A DNA stretch of 34,645 nucleotides from Verrucomicrobiia bacterium. GTDB lineage: Bacteria > Verrucomicrobiota > Verrucomicrobiia > Verrucomicrobiales > DEV007. Shown piece after piece: positions 362 to 14,965 of the stretch (position 1 is its first letter; the number at the start of each line of letters is the position of its first letter). Location of the stretch: NCBI GenBank assembly GCA_030432615.1, contig JAUIGT010000003.1, positions 1 to 34,645 on the forward strand, in the 5' to 3' direction. Under the pieces are notes generated by a model that had not been told where the DNA came from, did no database searches, and saw only the letters and a program-made list of their open reading frames with translations. Both the position numbers and the translations under genes were made by a program.

Positions 362-1645
362 TCAGGCGGACTCCAGCCCCCGCATCGTGCCGGTGCTGGT
401 GGCAAAGGTATCCGCCTCGACGCCCAGGCGCTGCAGCACGCTGACGAACAGGTTGGGCAGCGGGTAATCGTGATTTCCTCCCAGCGAAAGATGCTGGGCA
501 TGCCGGAAGCCTCCGCCCGCGATGAGGACGGGAAGGTGATTGTTGGTGTGGGCATTGGCGTTGCCCATGCAGGTCCCGTAGATGACCGAGGTCTGGTCGA
601 GCAGGCTGGTCCCTCCCGGCCGGGAAGCGTCCAGGCCGTCCAGGAGCCTGGCGAGTTCGCGGAACTGGGCGCTCTCGATCAGGCTGAGTTGCTCGAGCTT
701 CTCCTTCTGGTTGCCGTGATGGGTCAGCGGGTGGGTGCCGGTGTCGACGCCGGGGATGTTCGGCTTCGCCGTGTTCTGGTGGATGTAGATCGAGATCAAC
801 CGGGTGGAGTCGGTTTCCAAGGCCAGCCGGGTGAGATCATACATGATGCGGGTGCGCTCGATCAGGGCACCGGGATCCTTGTAGTCCTTCGGCATGGGGA
901 AATCGACGGAGGTCTTGGGCTTCTTCTCCCATTCCTCGCCCTTGAGAAGTCGCCCCTCCAGTTCGCGCACCCCGGTGAAGAACTGATCGAGCCTGTCCCG
1001 GTCCGCCGCATCGACACTCTTCTGCAACTGCCTGGCGCGATCTCCCACGGAATCGAGAATGCTTCGTCCCTGGCGGAGCTTGGCCACCTGGGCCTCGACC
1101 TCGGCCTCGGAGCCCTGGACGAACAACTTGCGGAACAGGCCCGAGGGCGAGTCCTCACCGGGAATCTGGACCCCGGACTGGGTGTAGGAAAGGCTCTGCT
1201 TCGTTCCCACCGCAAGCGAGAGCGAAGGGAAGCGGGTCAGGTGCCCGATCCGGTCGGCGGCATACTGGTCGACCGAGATGGTGTTGCGGAATCCGCCGCG
1301 ACCGGGGTGCGGCGCGGCGGTGAGGAAACATTTCTCCGCGCTGTGTCCGCCATCGACCTCGGGATGCGAGACGCCGGAGAAAACGGTCATCTGCTCGCGA
1401 TGAGCGTCGAGGAGTTCCAGGTAGCGCGAAGCCTCGTAGTCTTTCCCCTCCCCCTGGGGAAAGAAATACTGCGGCAGGATTCCCTGGTTTGTCTCGATCG
1501 CGACGAGACGCTGGACCTTGGACGATTCGCCGGCGCGGGCGCGCAGCGGGATCATCGAATCGAGCAAGGGAAGAGCGAGACCGACGCCGAGCCCCCGGAG
1601 GACGGTGCGGCGGTCGAGTGGCTGGCGGGCAATGTGGGGACTCAT
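362..1645 (-). CDS. DUF1552 domain-containing secreted protein
   Basis: 427 aa; N-terminal twin-arginine-like DRRTVLRGLGVGLALPLLDSM; DUF1552-like phrases (HPEVDGGHSAEKCFLTAAPHPGRGGFRNTISVDQYAADRIG, GTCMGNANAHTNNHLPVLIAGGGF). Start is 2 nt downstream of the DUF1592 gene stop, so operon-like. Confidence 0.93.
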   Translation of the reverse strand: MSPHIARQPLDRRTVLRGLGVGLALPLLDSMIPLRARAGESSKVQRLVAIETNQGILPQYFFPQGEGKDYEASRYLELLDAHREQMTVFSGVSHPEVDGGHSAEKCFLTAAPHPGRGGFRNTISVDQYAADRIGHLTRFPSLSLAVGTKQSLSYTQSGVQIPGEDSPSGLFRKLFVQGSEAEVEAQVAKLRQGRSILDSVGDRARQLQKSVDAADRDRLDQFFTGVRELEGRLLKGEEWEKKPKTSVDFPMPKDYKDPGALIERTRIMYDLTRLALETDSTRLISIYIHQNTAKPNIPGVDTGTHPLTHHGNQKEKLEQLSLIESAQFRELARLLDGLDASRPGGTSLLDQTSVIYGTCMGNANAHTNNHLPVLIAGGGFRHAQHLSLGGNHDYPLPNLFVSVLQRLGVEADTFATSTGTMRGLESA

Positions 1646-1647
1646 GG

Positions 1648-4188
1648 TTACTTGGAGCGGAAGGTTTCGGAGAGAACGACGTGCTCGAGAAGGTCGCGGA
1701 CGGGAAAGCCATCGGCCTCGGTGGCGTCGAGGATCGACTCGATCACGGACCGGTCGGCGAAGGTGGGTGTCGCACCGGTGGAGAAAGTGAGGAAACGCTC
1801 CACCAGGTTGCGGGCGAGTTGGCGCTCCTGCTCAAGGAGATGGGTGCGGAAATCGGCGATTCCCTCGAAGGCGAATCCGTCCTTCGTCACCCCGGAGGAA
1901 TCGACCGGGAGTCCACGCTTGTAGCGGACATCGCGCCCGGCCACCTGGAGACCGACCGTTTCCCCCTCTCCGAAGGATCGGTAGTGGTCGCGCCATTTGC
2001 CCATCACATCGAAGCTCTCCAGGGCGAAGCCGGGAGGATCGATCACGGCATGACAAGCGGCGCAGGATTCGCTTCGGCTGTGCAGTGCCAGGAGTTCCCG
2101 GACCGTCCTGGCCCCCTGGGTGTCGGGCTCGATCGCACCGGCGTCGGGTGGCGGGGCGGAGGCGGGCGTGCCGAGGATTCGCTCCATCACCCAGGCACCC
2201 CGAATCACGGGGGAAGAGGTCAGCCCGTTGGCGGTGACCTTGAGAACGCTCGACTGGGTCAGGAACCCACCCCGCACCGAATCCTCGGGCAGGTCGACCC
2301 TCCGGATCCCGCGTCCTTCGACACCCTCGATCCCGTAGAGCCTCGCGAGCCGTTCGTTGATCATGACGAAGTCGGCATCGACCACCGTGCGCGTGGGCAG
2401 GTTCCGCCGCAGCATCTCCGCGAAGGTCTCCTCGGTTTCCGCGACGGCGGACTCGACGAGATGGGTGTCGCAGAAGTATTCCGGAAACAGGTAGCGGTCG
2501 GGAGTGGTCTCGTTGACCTCGCGAAGATCGAGCCACTGGCCGGTGAAGTCCGCAACGAAGCGCTCCGCTCTCGGATCCTCCAGGAGACGGGAGAACTCCG
2601 AGCGCAAGCCATCGTCGGTGAGCAGCTGGCCGCTCGCCGCCACATCGAGCAAGGCGGAATCGGGCATCGACCGCCACATCAGGTAGGAAAGCCGCGATGC
2701 CAGGGCAAAGGGGTCGAGTATCCCGGGTGACTCGCGGAAATAGAGGAAGTCGGGAGAGCAGAGCGCGGCCTTGAAGGCCGGACGCATCGCGTCCTGGAAG
2801 CAGGCCCGGTTCTCAATTTCGGCCAGCGCGAAGGCGAGACACCGCTGCACTTCCGACTCGGGCGGAGGACGGCGGTAGGCCCGCTCGAGGAAGTCGCGGA
2901 GGAGTCGTTCCGCATCCTCGGCGGGAGACTCGGAGACAACCATGAACAGTTCCGGCGGCAGCTGGAAAGTTTCGCGCAGCCCGAACTTGTTGGCGGTGAG
3001 GTCGGGAAGGTTGAGCGGTTGTGGCGGCTTCAGTCCGCTCTCCTCCGTCCACGGTGCCGTCGGGAGATCGCCGAAGAGACGGCGAGAGCTCTCCGGCGGC
3101 CACTCGCCCTCGACGCAGTCGGGATTCGCGAAGGGCCCCTCGATCTCGAACCAGTCGATCCCGATGCCATCCCGCTTCAGGGGACCGGTCGGATCCTTCT
3201 TTCGGTTCGGGAAATTGAAATCGTCCAGCGTGGCGCAGAAGAAGTCGAGGTTCTCGTCCTGGTGCTGCCAGGCCACGAACTCGACGATGCCCCCCTCGGG
3301 ACCTCTCGGGACATCGAATTCCCCGAGAACCCGCTTCGCCGAGGTGTTGATCAAGGCGACATGCCCCCGCTTCGGGTCGGACAATTCGCCATGGTCGTAG
3401 TGAACTGCAGCCGCCCGCACCCGGAAACGATACCAGCCCGGGATCTGCGGCGAGGTATTGCGGATGTGATAGGTATCCTGCGCGCTGTTGGGCTGGCGGA
3501 AGAAGATCGTCCAGTCGCCGACCGGCCGGATGTCCCCGACACCCTTCCCGGCGAATTCCCCTTTCCCCAGATAGCGGGGTTCCTGCGAGAACCAGGTCCT
3601 CACCTTCTCGGTCTCGTGCGGGGGACGCAGCTGCATCGCTCCGTCGATCGCGACCTCGGCAGCTTCCAGGTAGCGCGCCAATTGGACATAGGAGAGTTCC
3701 TGCGCCTTGGCGACATTGTCGAAGCCCTCGACCGACGGATCGGGCGGCAACATCGCCTTCAGTTCCAACCACGGGGCGGCAAGCAGATCGCGCAGCGTCG
3801 TCTCGTATTCGGTCGGGTTGAGGCGACGACCACCGGTGCGCCCCCTTTCCGCGTAGCGCTTTCTCCATTCGTCCTCAAGTGCCCCGGCGGTGTTGTCACC
3901 AAACACGGCCAGTGCTTTCTCGCCGGGCCTTGACTCCCCCTCGGGCGGCATTTCACCGGAGACCGCCCGGTCATGCACCTTCGCCCAGATCGCGAGATTG
4001 TGCGGATCGCTGGGATCGAACTCGAGTTCGAGCAGGTTCAGTCCGCCTTCCGTCGTGAGATCGTCGTGGCACTCGTAGCAGTGTGTCTCGAGAAACCGAT
4101 GAACCGGCTCCACCAGTTCCCCTCTCGCGCTGGCGACCCACGCCAGCAGGCCCAGAACAGGAAGGATCTGTAGAATCAATCGCATCAT
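1648..4188 (-). CDS. DUF1587/DUF1592/DUF1588/DUF1585 multidomain protein with cytochrome-c-like CxxCH motifs
   Basis: 846 aa with signal peptide, two CxxCH motifs (CYECH near N-terminus, CAACH near C-terminus), RRLNPTEYETTLRDLL, SRLSYLMWRSMPD, RGGFLTQSSVLKVTANGLTSSPVIRGAWVMERILGTP, IDPPGFALESFDVMGKWR: classic PVC-type architecture. Confidence 0.93.
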   Translation of the reverse strand: MMRLILQILPVLGLLAWVASARGELVEPVHRFLETHCYECHDDLTTEGGLNLLELEFDPSDPHNLAIWAKVHDRAVSGEMPPEGESRPGEKALAVFGDNTAGALEDEWRKRYAERGRTGGRRLNPTEYETTLRDLLAAPWLELKAMLPPDPSVEGFDNVAKAQELSYVQLARYLEAAEVAIDGAMQLRPPHETEKVRTWFSQEPRYLGKGEFAGKGVGDIRPVGDWTIFFRQPNSAQDTYHIRNTSPQIPGWYRFRVRAAAVHYDHGELSDPKRGHVALINTSAKRVLGEFDVPRGPEGGIVEFVAWQHQDENLDFFCATLDDFNFPNRKKDPTGPLKRDGIGIDWFEIEGPFANPDCVEGEWPPESSRRLFGDLPTAPWTEESGLKPPQPLNLPDLTANKFGLRETFQLPPELFMVVSESPAEDAERLLRDFLERAYRRPPPESEVQRCLAFALAEIENRACFQDAMRPAFKAALCSPDFLYFRESPGILDPFALASRLSYLMWRSMPDSALLDVAASGQLLTDDGLRSEFSRLLEDPRAERFVADFTGQWLDLREVNETTPDRYLFPEYFCDTHLVESAVAETEETFAEMLRRNLPTRTVVDADFVMINERLARLYGIEGVEGRGIRRVDLPEDSVRGGFLTQSSVLKVTANGLTSSPVIRGAWVMERILGTPASAPPPDAGAIEPDTQGARTVRELLALHSRSESCAACHAVIDPPGFALESFDVMGKWRDHYRSFGEGETVGLQVAGRDVRYKRGLPVDSSGVTKDGFAFEGIADFRTHLLEQERQLARNLVERFLTFSTGATPTFADRSVIESILDATEADGFPVRDLLEHVVLSETFRSK

Positions 4189-4610
4189 GGGGAAATAGCG
4201 TCAGCTTCCCAAGTTTGCCAAAAAAATGCGCGTCCTGCGCAACCACATCATCCCTGCATTCCTGGCGAATTCCAGGCATGGGGCGAACGATTGGCGGCGG
4301 CGAAAGCGTGGAGCCGATCCCTCTGCGGTGACCGGCTGCGCACCTCCTCGTCGTCCCGGTGGACCGACTCGAGCCGCGCCGTCTCATCTTCGGCAATCGA
4401 ATCGTCGCGGACCCTGCTGCAGGGTTCGGGGAGTTCGCGCGGGTTCATGACGATTCCAGCTTCAACCGGAGGGAGATGCATTTGGGGAGGGGTTCGTGGA
4501 TCCGGTTCGTCGTTCGTCCTTCGGCTGACGACCGAGTCCGACTTTCCGAGGCGCCGGGCGAGGCTGCGATTCGTGGATTCTCCGGATCCCGTTCCGAACC
4601 AAGAGCGAGG

Positions 4611-7600
4611 CTACTCGCCGGAATCCTTCCCGGTCAGGAGCAGGCGGAGAAAGGTGTCGTCCCGATAGCGATCGCCCGGTGAATCGCCCTGGCGAAGGGC
4701 GACCATGCCGAGCGAGGGAACGACATACAAGCGGCACTTGCCGGCCCCGAGGGCGGCGAACAGATCCGTGTAGCCATCGTGGTAGATCCATCCTCCCACG
4801 GCCCCGTCCGGCGCCGACTGGAGCGGATGCGATCCATGCCCGTCGGGATGGTTCAGCCACAGGGCCAACCCGTGCCCGGGGTTGGTCTCGCTGGGCCGGA
4901 TCAACTCGTCCAACAGATCCTTGGCGACGATCTGTTTCCCTTGCCACTCGCCTCCCTGGAGCAGCCATTGGCCGAACCGGCTCCAATCGCGGGCGGTGAG
5001 ATGCGCCCCGTTGGGAATGTGGGGATTTCCCGAATCGTCGTGCACCCATTCCCCGGTTCCGACGCCGATCGGATCGAGAATGCGCTCTTTCAGGTAGTCC
5101 AAAGGCGTCTGTTTCCGGGGAGCGAGCTTTCGCTTCATGATTTCACCGAGGACGTAGTAGCAGCTGGGGCCATACTGGAAGAACTCCCCCGGTTCACGGA
5201 CAGCCGCGACACCGATGGAGTGCCGATAGAGGTCGGGAGCCAGGGTCGGCCGATCATCACCCTGGAGATTCCGGACATCCTGCACCAGGCCGGCGTTGAG
5301 GCTGAGCAGGTGGCGCAGGGTGATCCGGCTCTTGCGGGGATGATTCTTCCATTCCGGGAGCGTTCTCGTTGCGGGTTCGTCGAAGGATTCGATCAGTCCG
5401 TCTTCGATCATCGCCGCGATGACCGGTCCCCAGAATCCCTTGGTGGCGCTGTGAAGATGGGTCGCGGTTTCCGGGCCGAAACCTTCCTCGTAGCGCTCGA
5501 ATGCGACCTTCCCGTCGATCATGACGAGGACGGCGCGGCCGCCGTTTCGGGCCGAGTAGTCCGCGGCGAGGTCCCCGTGCACGTCCGGCGCGCTTCTCTC
5601 CTCGGCAGCCGATGGGGCCGAATCACGGTCCCCCGAACCCGGCGAATCGGGCATCGCCCCGACCGGCGACCGGTGGGCGGGACCGGCGTCGAGGATCTCG
5701 TCGATGATCGCCTTGGCTTCGTAGTAGACACGGTGGGCGTCATTGTAGCGACGACCGTCATCGCCCAGTTTCCACTTCCGCGCATAGGGCAGGAGAACGC
5801 CGGCCACGTTCCGTTCCAAATCCAGGAAGGGCATGCAACCGAATCCGCCGCCGGAAGTGATGGCGGTCGTCCGGCCGGTATCCGGATCGAAGTCCTCCAG
5901 CCAGCAACCGATGCCGTAGGGCGCGCTCGCCAGCGCCGGATCGACAGCGTGGAGTCCCTCGTAGGCATGGCGCAGAATGGGAACGTCGCCACTCTGGTTC
6001 GCCAGCATGGTGGCCACCGCCTCCTCCGACAGGATCCTCCGGCCCTGGTAGACGCCTCGGTTGAGCAACATGGTCAGGTATTTGCCGTAGTCGTCGACGC
6101 AGGTCCGCACGGCGCCCGCCACGTTCGGATTCTCCGTGGGACCAAGCCCGAAGTAGTCGGTGCTGTCCATCCCCAGCGGGTCGCCGATCGTTTCCCGGAA
6201 GAGATCGGCCCAGGGTTTGCCGGTGGTGATTTCACAGATGCGGCCCGCGGCCTGCATCCCGATCCCTCCGTAGTAGAGCGCCGTGCCCGGGTCGGCGACC
6301 AGCTCGCAGTCGGCGATCCTGTGGACCGCTTCCTCCATGGTCAACGAGGTGTTGTAGAGGTGGTCGCGGACGTTGCCCTTGAGGCCATGCGTGTGGGAAA
6401 ACATCTGGCGAATGGTGATGTCGGCCTTCTTCCCCGTGAAAGAGGGAAGGTAGCGGGAAGCGGGATCATCGAGGCTGATCCTGCCGGCATCGACGAGGGC
6501 CATGACGACTCCGCCGGAGATCCATTTCGAGGACGAGGCGACCGGAACGACCTTGTCGGGAGTGAAGCTCCCGTAGGCGCCGCGGTGGATCACGCGATCC
6601 CCCTGGATCAGGATGAAGGCGCACCCGCCCTCGAGGCGCGGCGCGGCGTCCTCGAGAAAACGGTCCAGGCGGCTGAAATCGTATCCCTCACCGACCGGAG
6701 CAGCCTGCTCTCCCCGTTGGCCGGCGGAGTCCGGGGACATCGCGTTCTCCTTGCTCTCGAGACGGACACGCCCCTGGTCCTCCTCCGGGATCGGCCAGGA
6801 CCGAAGGCGCTGGCGAGCCTGTGAATCGGCCTCGAGGTGTGCTTTCCAAAAGGCGGTGGTCGCCTCCCGGACGAACGCGGCCGGCGCCGGATCGATGTCC
6901 TCACCCGTGCACAGGCCCGCGAAGTCGCCCCCCATGCCTTCGACCCAGAGCAGGTACTTGTCGCCGGGCCGGGCGAAGCGGTAGGGCTCGGTGCGCCACT
7001 CGGCCGGATTCGACGTCCTCCGGCTGGGCGTCCCGGAACCCGTCGCCACCAGCATGGGCTTGTCGATTTCTTCCCACGAGGTCTCGTCCAGCTCCTGACC
7101 ACGTCCCTGGGGAGAGAGCAACAGCGCCGCATCCACCCGCGGATCCAGGAAATCCTCCGTTTCGTTTCCCGGTCCGAAGCCCGCTCCTTTCATTCCCACC
7201 AGGGCCCCGGCGGCGTAGGAGCCGATGAAGTGACCGCCCACCCCGATCCGCGTGGCATCCATCTTCGACACGAGTCCGGAAGCCTTGCGCCCGATTTCTT
7301 CCAGGGAATCGATCAGGAAACTCAGGTCGCGAGCGCGCTCCCTCCAGTCTTCGCCCATCCGCCTGGTGTCGGCATGATCGGCCTGAATCACCACGTATCC
7401 GCTGGCGGCCCAGTCTTCCACCAACGGCCGGAAATCGGTTCGGCTGCGCCGCACGGCGTGGGCGAACAGGATCACGGGAAACGCACCCTCCGCATCGGGC
7501 CCGGTGATGCGGAGCGCCAGGTCCTTGTCTCGTTTCGCATCGTGGAGCACCAGTTCCTCGATGACCGTGACGGGAAGCCGTCCACTCCCTGGCGGACGGG

Positions 7601-8897
7601 CGACCTCGGTGCCGCCACCGCCTTCCGGCATGGCTGGCCCAGTCTCGCCGGCTGGACGCTGGCCGGCTCGTTCCAGAACGGGACGCAGTTCTTCCCCGGT
7701 GAGCCTGCCATCGCTGTCGCGGTCGATCCGGTCGAACATTCCCTTGAGTCGCGCGGGCGCTTCCTCGCGGGAAAGTGCGCCATCGTCGTCTTGATCGAAC
7801 AAGGCCAACAACCGCCCGACCCGGTCCTCCGCCGGCGATGCCGGTGGCGTATCCATCTTCTCCGAGATGGCGGGCGACTCCGGACCCGCGTCCTTCGCCA
7901 CTTTCTCCAGCTTCTGCTCCTGCGCGCACTCCCCAACCGTTTCCGTCTCCAGGGTCCCGGCCCGCAGCCACTCCCCGGCCTTCGGGTCGTCCTTGAGGTA
8001 GGCATCGAGAAAGGCGGTGGTCGCCTGCTGGATCCAGAGGTGATGCCGGGGATCGCGTTCCCGGGCGGGATAGAACGGGACCGAATCGGTGAAGGCGTTG
8101 TGCTCGGCATCCCGGATCTCCACCAGGTATTTGTCCCCGGGCGGAAGACCGTCGAAGGGAATCCGCGTCCGGTTGGGAATCTCCCGGGCCTCGGGAGACC
8201 AGTTGAAGTCCCGCGAGCCGGTCACCATCAAAGTGGGAACCTCGATGTGTGCCCACGAGCCTTCGTGCAGCGGGCTGTTGCGCTGGATCCCCGGCTGCGG
8301 TGAGAGGGCGAGCGCGCACTTGAATCGTGGATCGAGAAAGGTCGCATCCCCCTTTTCCGGAAGATCGATGCGGAGGCCGACCATGGCCAGGGCCGTGCTG
8401 GATCCGGCGCACTGTCCCGCCACCGCCACCTGGTCCGGTGCGATCCGGCCTTCCAGCAGCTCGCTGCCGGGATCGTCGCTCAGCACCTTGTCGAGGACGA
8501 AGCGGACGTCCTCCGGTCGGAGGTGAAAATTCCCGACGCCGCCCATGCCCCGAAGCCCTTGCCCATCGACGGCCTCCCGATCGCTGCCGGGGTGGGTCAG
8601 GAACACCGTGATATAGCCGTTCTCCGCCCAGTGGGTGCCGAGATAGGTGTATGCCTCGCGCGACTCCCCTCCGCCATGGGAAAAGACGATGACCGGGAAC
8701 GGCCCATCACCCCGATCCAAAGCGGGCGCGTAGATGCGGACGGGCACTTCGCGGCCTCGCGCTTCGTCCAGCCAGTCGAGATCCTTCGTCGCGACGGACG
8801 GCATCGGTCCGGTGGCCTCCTGCGCGGACAACCGGCCCATATTCAAGCCGAACACGAGCGAGCAGGACAGGACAAGGAAAGCTCGGAAGATCTTCAT
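4611..8897 (-). CDS. Secreted multidomain hydrolase: alpha/beta hydrolase (Cys nucleophile) + EF-hand linker + degenerate alpha/beta hydrolase + two serine beta-lactamase-like domains
   Basis: One uninterrupted ORF (track start 8951; preferred start ATG at 8897, MKIFRAFLVLSCSLVFGLNMGRLSAQ, signal peptide). Domain 1 VIVFSHGGGESREAY/VAVAGQCAGSS/VTGSRD/RDAEHN; EF hands DQDDDGALSREE and DRDSDGRLTGEE; domain 2 GGHFIGSYAAG; domain 3 VASSSKWISGG (SxxK); domain 4 HLHSATKGFWGP (SxxK). Confidence 0.87.
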   Translation of the reverse strand: MKIFRAFLVLSCSLVFGLNMGRLSAQEATGPMPSVATKDLDWLDEARGREVPVRIYAPALDRGDGPFPVIVFSHGGGESREAYTYLGTHWAENGYITVFLTHPGSDREAVDGQGLRGMGGVGNFHLRPEDVRFVLDKVLSDDPGSELLEGRIAPDQVAVAGQCAGSSTALAMVGLRIDLPEKGDATFLDPRFKCALALSPQPGIQRNSPLHEGSWAHIEVPTLMVTGSRDFNWSPEAREIPNRTRIPFDGLPPGDKYLVEIRDAEHNAFTDSVPFYPARERDPRHHLWIQQATTAFLDAYLKDDPKAGEWLRAGTLETETVGECAQEQKLEKVAKDAGPESPAISEKMDTPPASPAEDRVGRLLALFDQDDDGALSREEAPARLKGMFDRIDRDSDGRLTGEELRPVLERAGQRPAGETGPAMPEGGGGTEVARPPGSGRLPVTVIEELVLHDAKRDKDLALRITGPDAEGAFPVILFAHAVRRSRTDFRPLVEDWAASGYVVIQADHADTRRMGEDWRERARDLSFLIDSLEEIGRKASGLVSKMDATRIGVGGHFIGSYAAGALVGMKGAGFGPGNETEDFLDPRVDAALLLSPQGRGQELDETSWEEIDKPMLVATGSGTPSRRTSNPAEWRTEPYRFARPGDKYLLWVEGMGGDFAGLCTGEDIDPAPAAFVREATTAFWKAHLEADSQARQRLRSWPIPEEDQGRVRLESKENAMSPDSAGQRGEQAAPVGEGYDFSRLDRFLEDAAPRLEGGCAFILIQGDRVIHRGAYGSFTPDKVVPVASSSKWISGGVVMALVDAGRISLDDPASRYLPSFTGKKADITIRQMFSHTHGLKGNVRDHLYNTSLTMEEAVHRIADCELVADPGTALYYGGIGMQAAGRICEITTGKPWADLFRETIGDPLGMDSTDYFGLGPTENPNVAGAVRTCVDDYGKYLTMLLNRGVYQGRRILSEEAVATMLANQSGDVPILRHAYEGLHAVDPALASAPYGIGCWLEDFDPDTGRTTAITSGGGFGCMPFLDLERNVAGVLLPYARKWKLGDDGRRYNDAHRVYYEAKAIIDEILDAGPAHRSPVGAMPDSPGSGDRDSAPSAAEERSAPDVHGDLAADYSARNGGRAVLVMIDGKVAFERYEEGFGPETATHLHSATKGFWGPVIAAMIEDGLIESFDEPATRTLPEWKNHPRKSRITLRHLLSLNAGLVQDVRNLQGDDRPTLAPDLYRHSIGVAAVREPGEFFQYGPSCYYVLGEIMKRKLAPRKQTPLDYLKERILDPIGVGTGEWVHDDSGNPHIPNGAHLTARDWSRFGQWLLQGGEWQGKQIVAKDLLDELIRPSETNPGHGLALWLNHPDGHGSHPLQSAPDGAVGGWIYHDGYTDLFAALGAGKCRLYVVPSLGMVALRQGDSPGDRYRDDTFLRLLLTGKDSGE

Positions 8898-9051
8898 CAC
8901 GAGATATCCAACCCTGGAAACGCGTCGAGGTTGCCCTCGGGAGAGTTGCACAGGTTGTTAGATAGTTGGTTTCCGGTGCAGCGACCGCCGGAGGTCAGGG
9001 GCGAAGGTCGACCGCCCGGGGTGACGCAGGACTTTCCCCCATCCGCTGGAT

Positions 9052-9081
9052 GGAATTGGTTCCGCGGGAATTGATTCCGCG
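9052..9081 (+). repeat. Two tandem copies of a 15-bp palindromic unit
   Basis: GGAATTGGTTCCGCG (9052-9066) and GGAATTGATTCCGCG (9067-9081), one mismatch. Confidence 0.85.
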
Positions 9082-9111
9082 GGTCGCGCCTGTCATGATC
9101 CCGGTCTCGCC

Positions 9112-10293
9112 ATGAAATCTCGCTTCCTCGCTCTCCTCGTCCTCGCCAGCCTCACTCCGGTCGCCTTCGCCGAGCCGAGCGCGGAGCAACTGGCCAAGTG
9201 GCTGAAACGCTTTCCCCAGGCCGATGCGAATCAAGATGGGGTGCTGTCGGTCGAAGAAGCGACGCGCTTTCGCGATCAACTCACCGGAAAGGATCCCCGG
9301 AAGGGAGGCGCACCGCGCGCCTTCGACGTCGACCCCGGCTGGGACGCGGACACCTTTCCCGCGCATGCCGCCTGCTATCGTTCTCCCGAGGAGATCAAGG
9401 CGCTCTTCGGCGGCAAGGTCACCTCCTTTCCCAAGCCCGCGAACGGCGCCCTGCGCATCGTCGGCACCGGTCACAGTTTCATGGGACCGGGTTACAACGC
9501 CCTGCCGAAAATCACCGAGGCTGCCGGCTTCACGCAACCGCTCCTGACCCACACGGGTGGTGGCATCACTGGCAGCGCCCGCTACAAGTGGGAGCAGGAG
9601 AACGGCATCTTCCAGTTCGACGGCAAACCGGAACCCAAGCTGCTGGCGTCCATCGCCAACGCCGAATGGGACGCCATGATGTGGGGCCCGTATTTCAATG
9701 ATCGCCCCGAATACTACCGCTGCTGGATCGAGTTCTGCCTGAAATACCACCCCGACATGACCTTCTACCTCTCCGATGCCTGGCCGCAGCTGGTGCAGCT
9801 CGAGGAGATCCCGAAGTCCGAGGACGAGCTGAGCGCGGAGAAGATCGCCGCCATGGGACGGGAGAAGAACGCCATCTACGGCGAGGTCGTCAATGCGCTG
9901 AACGAGGACTATCCCGGCAAAGTCTTCGTCCTCCCGACCTCCGATGCCATGGTGCTTGCCGCCGAGCGCTGGCATCGCGGCGCACTGCCCGGCGTCGAGG
10001 GACTTCACCGCGTCCTCGGAGGAAAGGAGCGTTCCCTCTGGCGGGATCAGCTCGGCCACCTCGGCCCCGGCTTCGACCGGCTTGAGGGCTACGTTTTCTA
10101 CGCCACCCTCTACGGTAAGTCGCCGGAGCTGATCGAGGGCGACATCGCTTTTGGCCGGGAAAAGAACAGCGGCGGAGAGAAGTTTCCCAGCCCCGAGCTG
10201 GATCGGGTCTTCCGCCAGATCGCCTGGGAGGCCGTGATCGGGAATCCGCTTTCCGGGGTGAAAGACGAAAACGGCGACGGCATCGGCGATTGA
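9112..10293 (+). CDS. Secreted EF-hand protein with SGNH-hydrolase-like domain
   Basis: 393 aa; signal peptide MKSRFLALLVLASLTPVAFA; EF-hand DANQDGVLSVEEA; LRIVGTGHSFMGPGYNALPKI resembles an SGNH block I-like motif. Confidence 0.75.
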   Translation: MKSRFLALLVLASLTPVAFAEPSAEQLAKWLKRFPQADANQDGVLSVEEATRFRDQLTGKDPRKGGAPRAFDVDPGWDADTFPAHAACYRSPEEIKALFGGKVTSFPKPANGALRIVGTGHSFMGPGYNALPKITEAAGFTQPLLTHTGGGITGSARYKWEQENGIFQFDGKPEPKLLASIANAEWDAMMWGPYFNDRPEYYRCWIEFCLKYHPDMTFYLSDAWPQLVQLEEIPKSEDELSAEKIAAMGREKNAIYGEVVNALNEDYPGKVFVLPTSDAMVLAAERWHRGALPGVEGLHRVLGGKERSLWRDQLGHLGPGFDRLEGYVFYATLYGKSPELIEGDIAFGREKNSGGEKFPSPELDRVFRQIAWEAVIGNPLSGVKDENGDGIGD

Positions 10294-10297
10294 GATC

Positions 10298-10349
10298 GGA
10301 GCGCGACGATCCGTCGTCGCCTCACGGGGAGAGCGGGAGTCTCGCCCGG
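10298..10349 (+). repeat. Paired 3'-intergenic palindromic repeat, copy 1 (A 10298-10320, B 10331-10349)
   Basis: A: GGAGCGCGACGATCCGTCGTCGC (stem GCGACGA/TCGTCGC). B: GAGCGGGAGTCTCGCCCGG. Confidence 0.8.
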
Positions 10350-10369
10350 TGATTCCCCAACCAGGCTCG

Positions 10370-11536
10370 CTACTTTTCCCCCAACGTCCGCGCAAAGAAC
10401 GCCTTCATCGCCGGGCCCGTCTGATCGCGGTGCTGCGTGAAGACCCCGTGGCCGGCTCCCTCGATGCGGAGATACTCCACATCCTTCGCTCCGGCTTTCT
10501 TCAAGGCCTCCACGAAGGCATCGCCGTGCCGGACATTGACGGTCCCGTCCGCGGTTCCGTGGATGAGGAAAAACGGAGGGGCATCCTCGCGAACGTGGGT
10601 GATCGGCGAACTGAGTTTCGCCAATTCCGCCGAATCGTATTTCTCGTTCACGAACTTCGTGTCTCCACCGCGCGGCCGGGGGAACAGCGAGAAATCCGTC
10701 GGCGTCGCCGAGGCGCACACCGCCTGCAGCGCGCTCGACTGATCCTGCCACGGACCATCGCCCTCCAGCCCCGCCTCCGGCCCGGCCAGTCCGAGCATCG
10801 CGACCAGGTGCGCCCCCGCCGAATTTCCGTAACCGCCGATGCGATCGGGATCGACCCCGTATTCCTCCGCGTGAGCGCGAAACCACCTGACCGCGCATTT
10901 CACGTCCTCGATGCAGGCCGGAAACGGTGCCTCGGTGATGAGCCGGTAGTTGATCGTGATGCACACATAGCCCTCCTGCGCATACTCCACCGCCCCCTGG
11001 AAAAAGGTGCCCCGGCCCTTGTCTCCGCTCCGCCAGCCGCCGCCGTGGATGAAAACGATTCCCGGTCGCGGCGCGTCCGCCGGTTCCTTCGGCATCACGA
11101 GATCGAGTTTCCACGCCTCGCTTTCGTCGCCGTCGCGATAGGCGAGATCGCGCAGGATCGTGACATCGTCCGGCACCGCGCCGCCGGATTCCATTCCCGG
11201 GCGATTCCGGTTCGGCATTTCGCGATTGGCGTTTGCGCCATTGCCCCCACGCCGCTCGGCCAGGCGCAGCGCGATCGCCTTCAATTCCTCGCCGTCGAGC
11301 ATCCCGTCCGCATTGGCATCGTTCTGGTCGAAAAATCGGGCCATCAGCCCGCTGGTCTCCGACCTGGCCAACTTTCCATCACCGTTCGCATCCATCTGCT
11401 GGAGCCAACGGGCCGGGACATTCGAACCACCCGACGGCTTTCCGGAGTTCTCTTCGGCGCTGGAAAACGCCATCGCCCCCAGGAAAGTCACCGCAAAACC
11501 CATCAGGAGCGGATAGCGCAATCTACCGAAAGTCAT
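10370..11536 (-). CDS. EF-hand containing alpha/beta hydrolase (BD-FAE / HSL-type esterase-like)
   Basis: VFIHGGGWRSGDKG oxyanion motif, GGYGNSAGAHL nucleophile elbow, FFLIHGTADGTVN, GAGHGVF; EF hands DANGDGKLARSE and DANADGMLDGEE. Start at internal Met (MTFGRLRYPLL) at 11536 preferred over track start 11548. Confidence 0.87.
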   Translation of the reverse strand: MTFGRLRYPLLMGFAVTFLGAMAFSSAEENSGKPSGGSNVPARWLQQMDANGDGKLARSETSGLMARFFDQNDANADGMLDGEELKAIALRLAERRGGNGANANREMPNRNRPGMESGGAVPDDVTILRDLAYRDGDESEAWKLDLVMPKEPADAPRPGIVFIHGGGWRSGDKGRGTFFQGAVEYAQEGYVCITINYRLITEAPFPACIEDVKCAVRWFRAHAEEYGVDPDRIGGYGNSAGAHLVAMLGLAGPEAGLEGDGPWQDQSSALQAVCASATPTDFSLFPRPRGGDTKFVNEKYDSAELAKLSSPITHVREDAPPFFLIHGTADGTVNVRHGDAFVEALKKAGAKDVEYLRIEGAGHGVFTQHRDQTGPAMKAFFARTLGEK

Positions 11537-11701
11537 GAATCGAACCAACCCCGGGTGTCCCGGGAGGTTTCGAAAACGCCTCCTCCCACCCTGTCAGGTC
11601 CCGGACTCTACCCTCTTTGTTCCCGTCGCCGGGAATGCCGGGATCATCGTCAGCCCCTTGCCTCGGATTGGTTCTGGCCGGAAGTTGGCGGAAGGATGTC
11701 G

Positions 11702-14700
11702 ATGTCGTCTTTCTCCGCTCCCGCCTCTTCCGATGCCGACTCCGCCACCCCCGATCCGGCCGAGGCGGCGGTCGCGTTGGCGGAGCGACTGTTGCGGGAG
11801 TCGCTGGAGGCGATGACCGCGGATGAAGAAGCCCGCATGGCCAGGGTGGCCGACCTTATCGGACATCCGGACGCGAAACGTTTCAGCCTGGCGATGACGG
11901 ATCGACTCGGTCGATCGCGCGATGCCTCGCGAATGGCGCGGGCGTGGCGGGAATGGATCGACCGACTCGGAAAGGCGGAGGGATTTTCCTGGTTCGATCG
12001 CCTGCAACTGCGGCTCGGCGCTTTCGGATCGCGCCTGCTTCCGGGCCCGGTGATGGCGGCGGTGCGGCACCGGTTGCGGTCGGAGAGCCGGGACGTGATT
12101 CTCGACGCCGATGACGCCGCGCTCTCGCGCTACCTGGAGAAACGGCGCGAGGCGGGGGCGCGGGTGAACCTGAACCAACTCGGAGAAGCGGTCCTCGGCG
12201 AGGAGGAAGCGCGCAATCGCAGTGAGGCCTTGCTGCGGCTCCTAGAGCGGGACGATGTCGATTACGTGTCGGTGAAAATCTCGGCGCTCTTCAGCCAGAT
12301 CCATCTCGTGGCCTGGGAGAAAAGCCTGTCGGAGATCAAGGATCGGCTCCGTCCCGTGTTTCGCGCGGCGCGCGATCGGGGAAAATTCGTGAATCTCGAC
12401 ATGGAGGAATACCGGGACCTGGAACTGACCGCCCGCGCGTTCCGTGAACTATTGGATGAGAGTGAGTTCCATGACTTTTGCGCAGGAATGGTTTTACAGG
12501 CTTATCTGCCCGATTCCCTGGCCGTACAGCGGGAATTGACCGAATGGGCACGGAATCGCCACGCGCGGGGCGGGGCGCCGGTGAAGCTGCGGCTGGTGAA
12601 GGGCGCCAACCTGGCGATGGAACGGGTGGAGGCCGAGATGCACGGCTGGCACCCGGCTCCGCACCGGAGCAAGCACGAGACCGACGCGGCCTTCAAGCGC
12701 ATGCTGGAGTTCGCCTGTCGTCCCGAAAACGCCGAAGCGGTCCAGGTCGGCGTGGGCAGTCACAACCTCTTCGACGTGGCCCTCGCCCTGGTCCTCCGCG
12801 CGCGGGCTGGAGTGACCGATTTCGTGGAGATCGAGATGCTGGAAGGGATGGCCCCGCCGCAGTCGCGCGCGGTCCAGCGGGAGGCCGGCGCCCTGCTCTA
12901 CTACGCCCCGATCGTCAAGCGCGAGGACTTCGGCAGCGCGCTCGCCTACCTGATTCGCCGGCTCGACGAGAACACCGCGCCCGGAAACTTCCTGGCCAGT
13001 CTCTTTTCCCTGCGGCCGGGATCCGAGGCCTGGATCGAACAGCGCGACCGATTCCTCGCCGCCTGGCGGAATCGCGACACGATCCGGGAGGAATCCCGGC
13101 GCGCCACCCTGCCCGATCGGCCCGACGACGGATTTTCCAACGAACCGGACACCGACTGGACCCAGGCCGGGAACCGGCGGTTGCTCTCGCTGGCGAAAGC
13201 GGATCCGGATCACCCCCCGGCGGCGGGTTCGGAGGAAATCGAGCGCGCCCTGGCCGCGGCGACGGCGGCGCAGGCCGGGTGGGAGCGCCGCGGCGAAAGC
13301 GAACGGGCCTCCCTCCTCCGCGCCGCGGCGGAACAACTGGCGCGGACCCGATTCGAGACCATCGCCCTGATGCGGGACGAGGGAAAGAAGGCCCCGATGG
13401 AGGCCGACGCCGAGGTGTCGGAAGCGATCGATTTTGCCCGCTACTACGCCGAAACCACGCCGATACCCGAGGCACTGCAGGCCGAGGCGCTGGGAACGGT
13501 GGTGGTGACGCCGCCGTGGAATTTCCCTTTCGCCATTCCCTGCGGCGGCGTGCTGGCGGCCCTGGCGGCGGGGAACGCGGTGATCCTGAAGCCGGCACCG
13601 GAGAGCGTGCGCATCGGCTGGTGGCTGGTTCGCCAGCTGTGGAAAGCGGGAATTCCCCGCGAAGTGCTCCACTTCGTGGCCTGCGAGGACGGCGTCACGG
13701 GCCGGAAGCTGATCGAGGATTCCCGCACCGCCGCCGTCATCCTGACCGGCGCCTACGCCACGGCCCGGAAATTCCGGGAATGGCGTCCGTCGTTGAAATT
13801 GTTCGCCGAGACCAGCGGCAAGAACGCCCTCGTGGTCACCGCCCTGGCCGATCGCGAACTGGCGGCGAAGGACCTGGTGCAGTCGGCTTTCGGCCACACC
13901 GGCCAGAAATGTTCCGCCGCCAGCCTGGGCATCCTGGAGGCGGAAGTCTACGACGACCCCGTGTTTCGCCGGCAGTTGCGCGACGCGGCCGCCAGTCTCG
14001 CCGTGGGCGGAGCCGACGATTCCCGCAGTCGGGTGACCCCGCTGGTGCAGCCCCCGGGCGAAGACCTGCGCCGTGCCCTGACAACGCTGGACGATGGCGA
14101 GGAGTGGCTGCTGGAGCCGCGAGTCTCGGAGAACGATCCCCTGCTCTGGTCCCCCGGGATCAAACTCGGGGTGCGGCCCGGTTCGTGGTTTCACCGGACG
14201 GAGTGTTTCGGCCCGGTCCTCGGACTGATGCGGGCGCGGGATCTCGATCATGCCATCGAGCTGCAGAATGCGGTCGATTTCGGGCTCACCGCCGGCCTGC
14301 ATTCGCTGGACGAGAGTGAGATCGCCCGCTGGAAAGCCCGGGTCGAGGCCGGGAATCTCTACATCAATCGCGGCATCACCGGCGCCATCGTGCGTCGCCA
14401 GCCCTTCGGCGGCTGGAAGCGGAGCAGCATCGGCCCCGGCGCCAAGGCGGGTGGTCCGAACTACGTGAACCAGTTTCGAAGGCTGCGGGATCGCGAGCCG
14501 CGATCGATCGAGGCGGTGCGGACCTCCTACGAACGGGCGTGGCGAGAGCATTTCTCGATCGCTCACGATCCGAGCGGGCTGCGCTGCGAACGAAACGAAT
14601 TCCGCTATCGGCCGGCGCGCGGGGTGTTGTTGCGACTGAACGGCAACGAGGAGGACGAGCTGTCGACCGAACGAGCCCGGTTGGCGGCTGAGATCTGCGG

Positions 14701-14965
14701 CGTGCCGCTGACGATCAGCCGCGAGTCGGAGGAAAGCGCGGCCGACCTCGCGGCAAGGCTGCCGGAGATCGCCGGAGCGCTCGAATTTCTCCGCACGACC
14801 GGCCAGGCGCCGAGCGGTGAATTGCTGCGCGCCGCCGCCGAGCACGACCTGAACTGGATCGACGCCCCCGTGGTGGCCGAGGGACGCGTGGAATTGACCC
14901 GTTGGACGCGCGAACAGAGCGTCACCGAGACGCGCCATCGCTACGGAAACGTGATCGCCGACTGA
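11702..14965 (+). CDS. putA: Bifunctional proline dehydrogenase / L-glutamate gamma-semialdehyde dehydrogenase (PutA-type, no N-terminal DNA-binding domain)
   Basis: PRODH motifs VKLRLVKGANLAMERVEAEMHGW and VQVGVGSHNLFDVALAL; ALDH motifs TPPWNFPFAIPCGG, FAETSGKNALVV, GHTGQKCSAASLG, INRGITGAIVRRQPFGGWKRSSIGPGAKAGGPNY. Start chosen at ATG 11702 behind GGAAGG; 11696 also possible. Confidence 0.93.
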   Translation: MSSFSAPASSDADSATPDPAEAAVALAERLLRESLEAMTADEEARMARVADLIGHPDAKRFSLAMTDRLGRSRDASRMARAWREWIDRLGKAEGFSWFDRLQLRLGAFGSRLLPGPVMAAVRHRLRSESRDVILDADDAALSRYLEKRREAGARVNLNQLGEAVLGEEEARNRSEALLRLLERDDVDYVSVKISALFSQIHLVAWEKSLSEIKDRLRPVFRAARDRGKFVNLDMEEYRDLELTARAFRELLDESEFHDFCAGMVLQAYLPDSLAVQRELTEWARNRHARGGAPVKLRLVKGANLAMERVEAEMHGWHPAPHRSKHETDAAFKRMLEFACRPENAEAVQVGVGSHNLFDVALALVLRARAGVTDFVEIEMLEGMAPPQSRAVQREAGALLYYAPIVKREDFGSALAYLIRRLDENTAPGNFLASLFSLRPGSEAWIEQRDRFLAAWRNRDTIREESRRATLPDRPDDGFSNEPDTDWTQAGNRRLLSLAKADPDHPPAAGSEEIERALAAATAAQAGWERRGESERASLLRAAAEQLARTRFETIALMRDEGKKAPMEADAEVSEAIDFARYYAETTPIPEALQAEALGTVVVTPPWNFPFAIPCGGVLAALAAGNAVILKPAPESVRIGWWLVRQLWKAGIPREVLHFVACEDGVTGRKLIEDSRTAAVILTGAYATARKFREWRPSLKLFAETSGKNALVVTALADRELAAKDLVQSAFGHTGQKCSAASLGILEAEVYDDPVFRRQLRDAAASLAVGGADDSRSRVTPLVQPPGEDLRRALTTLDDGEEWLLEPRVSENDPLLWSPGIKLGVRPGSWFHRTECFGPVLGLMRARDLDHAIELQNAVDFGLTAGLHSLDESEIARWKARVEAGNLYINRGITGAIVRRQPFGGWKRSSIGPGAKAGGPNYVNQFRRLRDREPRSIEAVRTSYERAWREHFSIAHDPSGLRCERNEFRYRPARGVLLRLNGNEEDELSTERARLAAEICGVPLTISRESEESAADLAARLPEIAGALEFLRTTGQAPSGELLRAAAEHDLNWIDAPVVAEGRVELTRWTREQSVTETRHRYGNVIAD

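Follow-up and report, generated by a model that had tools for sequence, protein, structure and literature searches.

A predicted secreted protein joining four hydrolase-fold domains, one of them without its catalytic triad, in a Verrucomicrobiia bacterium

A single open reading frame, predicted to be secreted, that joins four hydrolase-fold domains and a pair of EF-hand loops was identified in the genome of a Verrucomicrobiia bacterium (assembly GCA_030432615.1, contig JAUIGT010000003.1), within the 34,645-nucleotide stretch analysed here, hereafter called the window. The chain reads signal peptide, D1, two EF-hand loops, D2, BL1 and BL2 (Table 1). The domains with their motifs, the loss of the triad in D2, the separate ancestry of the paired domains and the absence of the architecture from the searched relatives are established. 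The explanation that we favour, at a probability of roughly 0.62, is that four separate genes for secreted enzymes were fused in this lineage, with D2 now dead, D1 altered and BL2, probably together with BL1, active.

Table 1. Features of the fused open reading frame, with positions in the window
Feature	Position	Strand	Basis or detail
Complete fused ORF	4611..8897	(-)	1428 aa, uninterrupted from ATG to stop; single copy in genome
Sec-type N-terminal signal peptide, residues ~1-26	8820..8897	(-)	Hydropathy scan; cleavage site by eye
D1, PAF-AH/cutinase-like alpha/beta hydrolase, residues ~36-322	7932..8792	(-)	PF03403; AlphaFold/Foldseek
D1 nucleophile position, Cys163 (GQCAG), not Ser	8409..8411	(-)	Alignment with relatives
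Span with D1 Asp230 (8208-8210) and His266 (8100-8102), both retained	8100..8210	(-)	
EF-hand pair, residues ~362-411	7665..7814	(-)	Pfam; loops 7761-7796 and 7689-7724
D2, alpha/beta hydrolase fold without catalytic triad, residues ~442-705	6783..7574	(-)	Alignments; AlphaFold/structure match
D2 nucleophile position, Phe557 (GHFIG; GHSFG in relatives)	7227..7229	(-)	
BL1, PF00144 serine-hydrolase, residues ~746-1060	5718..6662	(-)	SSSK Ser788, YGG; nearest solved relative 5TGF
BL2, PF00144 serine-hydrolase, residues ~1101-1428	4614..5597	(-)	SATK Ser1150, YGP

The initial annotation had described one secreted ORF of about 1428 aa; as an observation it stands, down to the exact positions of the two nucleophilic serines (Ser788 at nt 6534-6536 and Ser1150 at nt 5448-5450), and its interpretation stands in part only. 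The frame is open throughout, and the N-terminal secretion signal is the most hydrophobic segment of the whole protein in the hydropathy scan, which suggests export via Sec. In Pfam, PF00144 matched two stretches (2.6e-62; 211 bits against a cut-off of 27), and both N-terminal units matched alpha/beta hydrolases of the PAF-AH/chlorophyllase type (3.8e-12 and 9.4e-09). The four domains are hydrolases by fold, yet not four hydrolases by function, as D2 lacks all three triad residues.

The two C-terminal domains had been called SxxK beta-lactamase-like, and this agrees with our results: both score above the curated cut-off of the PF00144 profile, and both carry the SxxK nucleophile and the catalytic Tyr. 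BL1 aligns with 5TGF at 158 bits, and BL2 matches 8RLJ, 6-aminohexanoate-dimer hydrolases and Lsa45. With the class C beta-lactamase-related hydrolases of PF00144/MEROPS S12 (5TGF; 8RLJ, NylB-type) they share SxxK and Tyr and, by homology, the fold; the difference is that here two divergent members lie in one chain and are joined to alpha/beta hydrolases. The equivalog model for class C beta-lactamases (NF033085, NCBIfam) gave 18.5 bits against a cut-off of 415. The third motifs of both domains are unlike those of classical beta-lactamases, that of BL1 (SGGGFG) being without their Lys/His, and a lactam activity of either domain is unsupported. BL2, and probably BL1 too, would instead be SxxK serine esterases or acyl hydrolases of the PF00144 (S12) type, whose substrate is probably an acyl ester, possibly a polysaccharide-linked one.

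Both N-terminal units resemble PAF-acetylhydrolases and cutinase-PETase-like enzymes (PF03403, PF12740, PF07224) in sequence matches and in fold, and their AlphaFold models show the cutinase/PETase/PAF-AH alpha/beta hydrolase fold (pLDDT 84.0 and pTM 0.87 for D1; 83.7 and 0.86 for D2). They depart from these enzymes in that D1 has Cys for Ser, and D2 lacks the triad and carries a shortened insert. All of the approximately 38 D1-type relatives, which come from the same taxonomic order as the bacterium, carry GHS[FY]G, an oxyanion loop of the SHGLGG type, Asp and His; in D1 itself the Ser of GxSxG is replaced by Cys, Asp and His are kept, and the oxyanion position reads FSHGGGE. Cys-His-Asp triads work in other alpha/beta hydrolases, of the dienelactone-hydrolase type, according to two papers (PMC9825947, PMC9853848), and D1 may therefore be active. 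This activity is nonetheless uncertain, since GQCAG stands where the relatives show GHSxG.

In D2, the positions of Ser, Asp and His are all substituted in the alignment to relatives, and the insert that separates the HAD segment from the RARDLSF segment is shorter than theirs. The aligned stand-alone D2-type relatives (L150/L154, L152, L153, L101) retain GHSFG, TGSxD and the His, as does L151 within the part that it covers. In the nearest of the stand-alone relatives (G421, 41% identical, and also G434, G687 and G076), GHSFG, the Asp after TGS and the His are intact. Since the triad is substituted in D2 and intact in these proteins, D2 is, judged by alignment, a pseudoenzyme descended from an active lineage, which may serve as a scaffold, spacer or binding module; it could also be freshly decaying instead of retained for some function.

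Could all four domains be active nonetheless, in a true tandem multi-esterase working through the Cys in D1 and through an unrecognised site in D2? The retained SxxK and Tyr of BL1 and BL2 would fit, as would Asp230 and His266 of D1 in view of the functional Cys-His-Asp triads described in the papers cited above. In D2, however, Ser has become Phe, and Asp and His are lost too, which makes this reading very improbable. The multi-esterase proposed earlier is thus over-stated, D2 being without Ser, Asp and His and the D1 nucleophile being a Cys.

The paired arrangement had further been taken to suggest two internal duplications or gene fusions. D1 and D2 are 29% identical (7e-32) and BL1 and BL2 25% (1e-17), both far above chance. 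Nevertheless, duplication within the chain was rejected for each pair, whose members fall into separate clades that include stand-alone proteins (AU p 0.00035 to 0.01). BL1 and BL2 are placed in two distinct clades, each well supported, and the AU test rejects them as sisters (p 0.00035); D1 and D2 are separated by a 100/99 branch with stand-alone members on each side, with AU p 0.01 against sisterhood and 0.0012 on another sequence set. On these trees the absence of duplication is firm for BL1/BL2; for D1/D2, whose trees contain long branches, it is well supported though not absolute. Gene fusion is supported: as had been pointed out, the domains are commonly encoded by stand-alone genes, relatives of this kind were found for each of the four, and their combination was seen in no other searched genome.

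The closest BL2 orthologue (P0002, in the congener G001) is a separate gene consisting of a signal, EF-hands and PF00144, 78% identical to BL2 in the search alignment and 74-79% by stretch. Counterparts in G080, G084 and G082 are likewise separate frames of about 413-474 aa (74-76% identity in G080 and G084), and the genome itself encodes an EF-hand plus PF00144 protein (G000:C557) that is 44% identical to BL2. These secreted stand-alone proteins share with the fusion the BL2-type domain and the EF-hand pair, whereas in the fusion the pair lies between D1 and D2 and three extra domains precede BL2. By counting, BL2 gave a dN of about 0.15-0.17, a dS of about 1.6-2.0 and a dN/dS of about 0.1, values that cover BL2 only and average over a whole branch, most of which possibly predates the fusion. 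Purifying selection has acted across the BL2 lineage. Relatives of BL1 also occur as stand-alone genes (L014, L155). A BL1-lineage pseudogene is present in the congener (L038:1752-2054, G001:C354), with an in-frame TGA and 58% identity to BL1 over its best part.

Perhaps the fusion is decaying, with D1, D2 and possibly BL1 losing function and selection acting on BL2 only. The long branches and active-site changes of D1 and D2, the stop-containing remnant of a BL1-like gene in G001 and the low dN/dS of BL2 would all agree with this. It is nonetheless unlikely, in that 4.3 kb are free of stops and frameshifts, GC3 and codon usage are typical of coding sequence throughout D1 and D2, and both domains have good predicted folds.

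In some relatives the stand-alone genes lie close together. In G421, one cluster holds a D1-type and a D2-type gene in the same orientation, along with a sulfatase and an F5/8 type C gene, and in both G013 and L086 (G067:C331) D1-type and BL1-type genes are clustered with a sulfatase. At L154, a D2-type gene (1132-2148, minus strand) and a D1-type gene (5405-6409, minus strand), both stand-alone with intact active sites, share a cluster with a sulfatase. Such clusters are a plausible source of fusions of this kind, and they point tentatively to acyl esters linked to polysaccharides as substrates.

A search for the same architecture, as the initial annotation had proposed, was run from genus to class and found the fusion in this genome only. 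It was absent from the genus and from 75 genomes of the family, 387 of the order and 384 of the class (these sets overlap, and the best two candidates per genome were scored in the full-protein order and class runs), and from a scan of named genomes. Apart from single-fold repeats matching both members of a pair, no other genome was seen to place at least two of these domains within a single matched frame. A literature search found no paper on this architecture. No orthologue of the whole fusion exists among the searched genomes, so a selective upkeep of the architecture is without support. The parts are known ones whose fusion is specific to this lineage, and one catalytic domain has decayed; as an example of gene fusion this is unusual but not revolutionary.

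Homologues split into separate genes, together with an assembly error, had been named as grounds against the fusion; the homologues found are indeed separate. An artefact would mean that the assembly merged reads from neighbouring genes or paralogues, in frame, into a chimera encoded by no cell. The assembly is fragmented (728 contigs), the fusion is seen in no other searched genome and BL2 is a separate gene in relatives, all of which speak for such an error. Against this, the frame would have to survive at every domain junction, and the only hydrophobic leader is N-terminal, whereas a join of secreted genes would have left signal peptides inside the chain. Moreover, the domain linkers are rich in P, G, S and E, repeats of at least 18 nt are absent from 4300-9200, and the genome is without a second DNA-level copy of any part of the fusion. 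D1, D2, BL1 and BL2 also resemble one another and the neighbouring genes in codon usage, with a lower value in the EF/linker segment only. An artefact is accordingly most improbable.

The two EF-hand loops said to separate the alpha/beta hydrolase domains were confirmed by Pfam (match at residues ~384-411, 7e-07) and by loop inspection. The loops DQDDDGALSREE (368-379) and DRDSDGRLTGEE (392-403) are canonical 12-residue D-x-D-x-D-G loops with Glu at position 12, paired at a spacing of 24 residues, and for this reason the pair likely binds Ca2+. EF-hand motifs lie N-terminal to the catalytic domain in P0002, the C557 gene of the same genome, the BD-FAE esterase at 10370-11548 and genes in L143/L146, so that such a pair is a module often found at the N-terminus of secreted enzymes in this group. 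Since such motifs precede the catalytic domain in many of these enzymes, a structural role of the pair and its Ca2+ is the simpler and more plausible reading and the calcium-responsiveness proposed earlier is unsupported; the word "hinge" fits as a description of its position between D1 and D2. It is quite doubtful that D2 has turned into a ligand- or substrate-binding module, that the EF pair works as a Ca2+-dependent switch at the D1-D2 joint and that the chain is thereby a regulated deacylase. If true, the protein would be a bacterial multi-enzyme whose two SxxK esterases receive their substrate from a pseudo-esterase.

In the fusion scenario that we favour, four once-separate secreted-enzyme genes would have been joined into one chain, which would leave the cell through Sec. 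BL2, and probably BL1, would work as SxxK serine esterases or acyl hydrolases, D1 would be an alpha/beta hydrolase whose Cys-His-Asp triad may or may not be active, and D2, though catalytically dead, would persist as a scaffold, a spacer or a module for binding. The EF pair, which in secreted enzymes of this group usually forms a Ca2+-binding module at the N-terminus, would have been brought into the D1-D2 junction, where in its Ca2+-loaded form it would most likely stiffen the joint. The protein is a clean case of such a combination, with four secreted-enzyme genes of separate inheritance in one chain and the whole triad lost in one unit. With that unit triad-less and its stand-alone relatives triad-intact, the emergence of a pseudoenzyme within a fusion becomes testable. 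Practical interest is limited, the fusion being in one genome only.

Finally, several neighbouring genes deserve mention. The divergent gene at 9112-10293 (+) has an EF-hand-like N-terminus, its curated domains amounting to a weak EF-hand match; taken as a synteny marker, it was unmatched in three congeners at E 1e-30. Beyond it, on the upstream side of the fusion, 10370-11548 (-) encodes a BD-FAE/LipQ-like secreted esterase with N-terminal EF-hands, and a related EF-hand esterase occurs at G000:C349. An ORF at 10349-14965 (+) encodes Pro_dh and Aldedh (PutA-like); read from the listed GTG, it overlaps the esterase on the other strand, and its domain matches begin at about residue 595, so that translation probably starts around 12.1 kb instead. 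On the other side, a DUF1592-type (PSD) gene at 1648-4188 (-) and a DUF1552 gene at 362-1645 (-) form a pair. The DUF1592 protein, checked for synteny, belongs to a large paralogous family, so that neither flanking gene marked out an empty site in the congeners; the expansion is reflected in 19 matches at E <= 1e-60 within its own genome.
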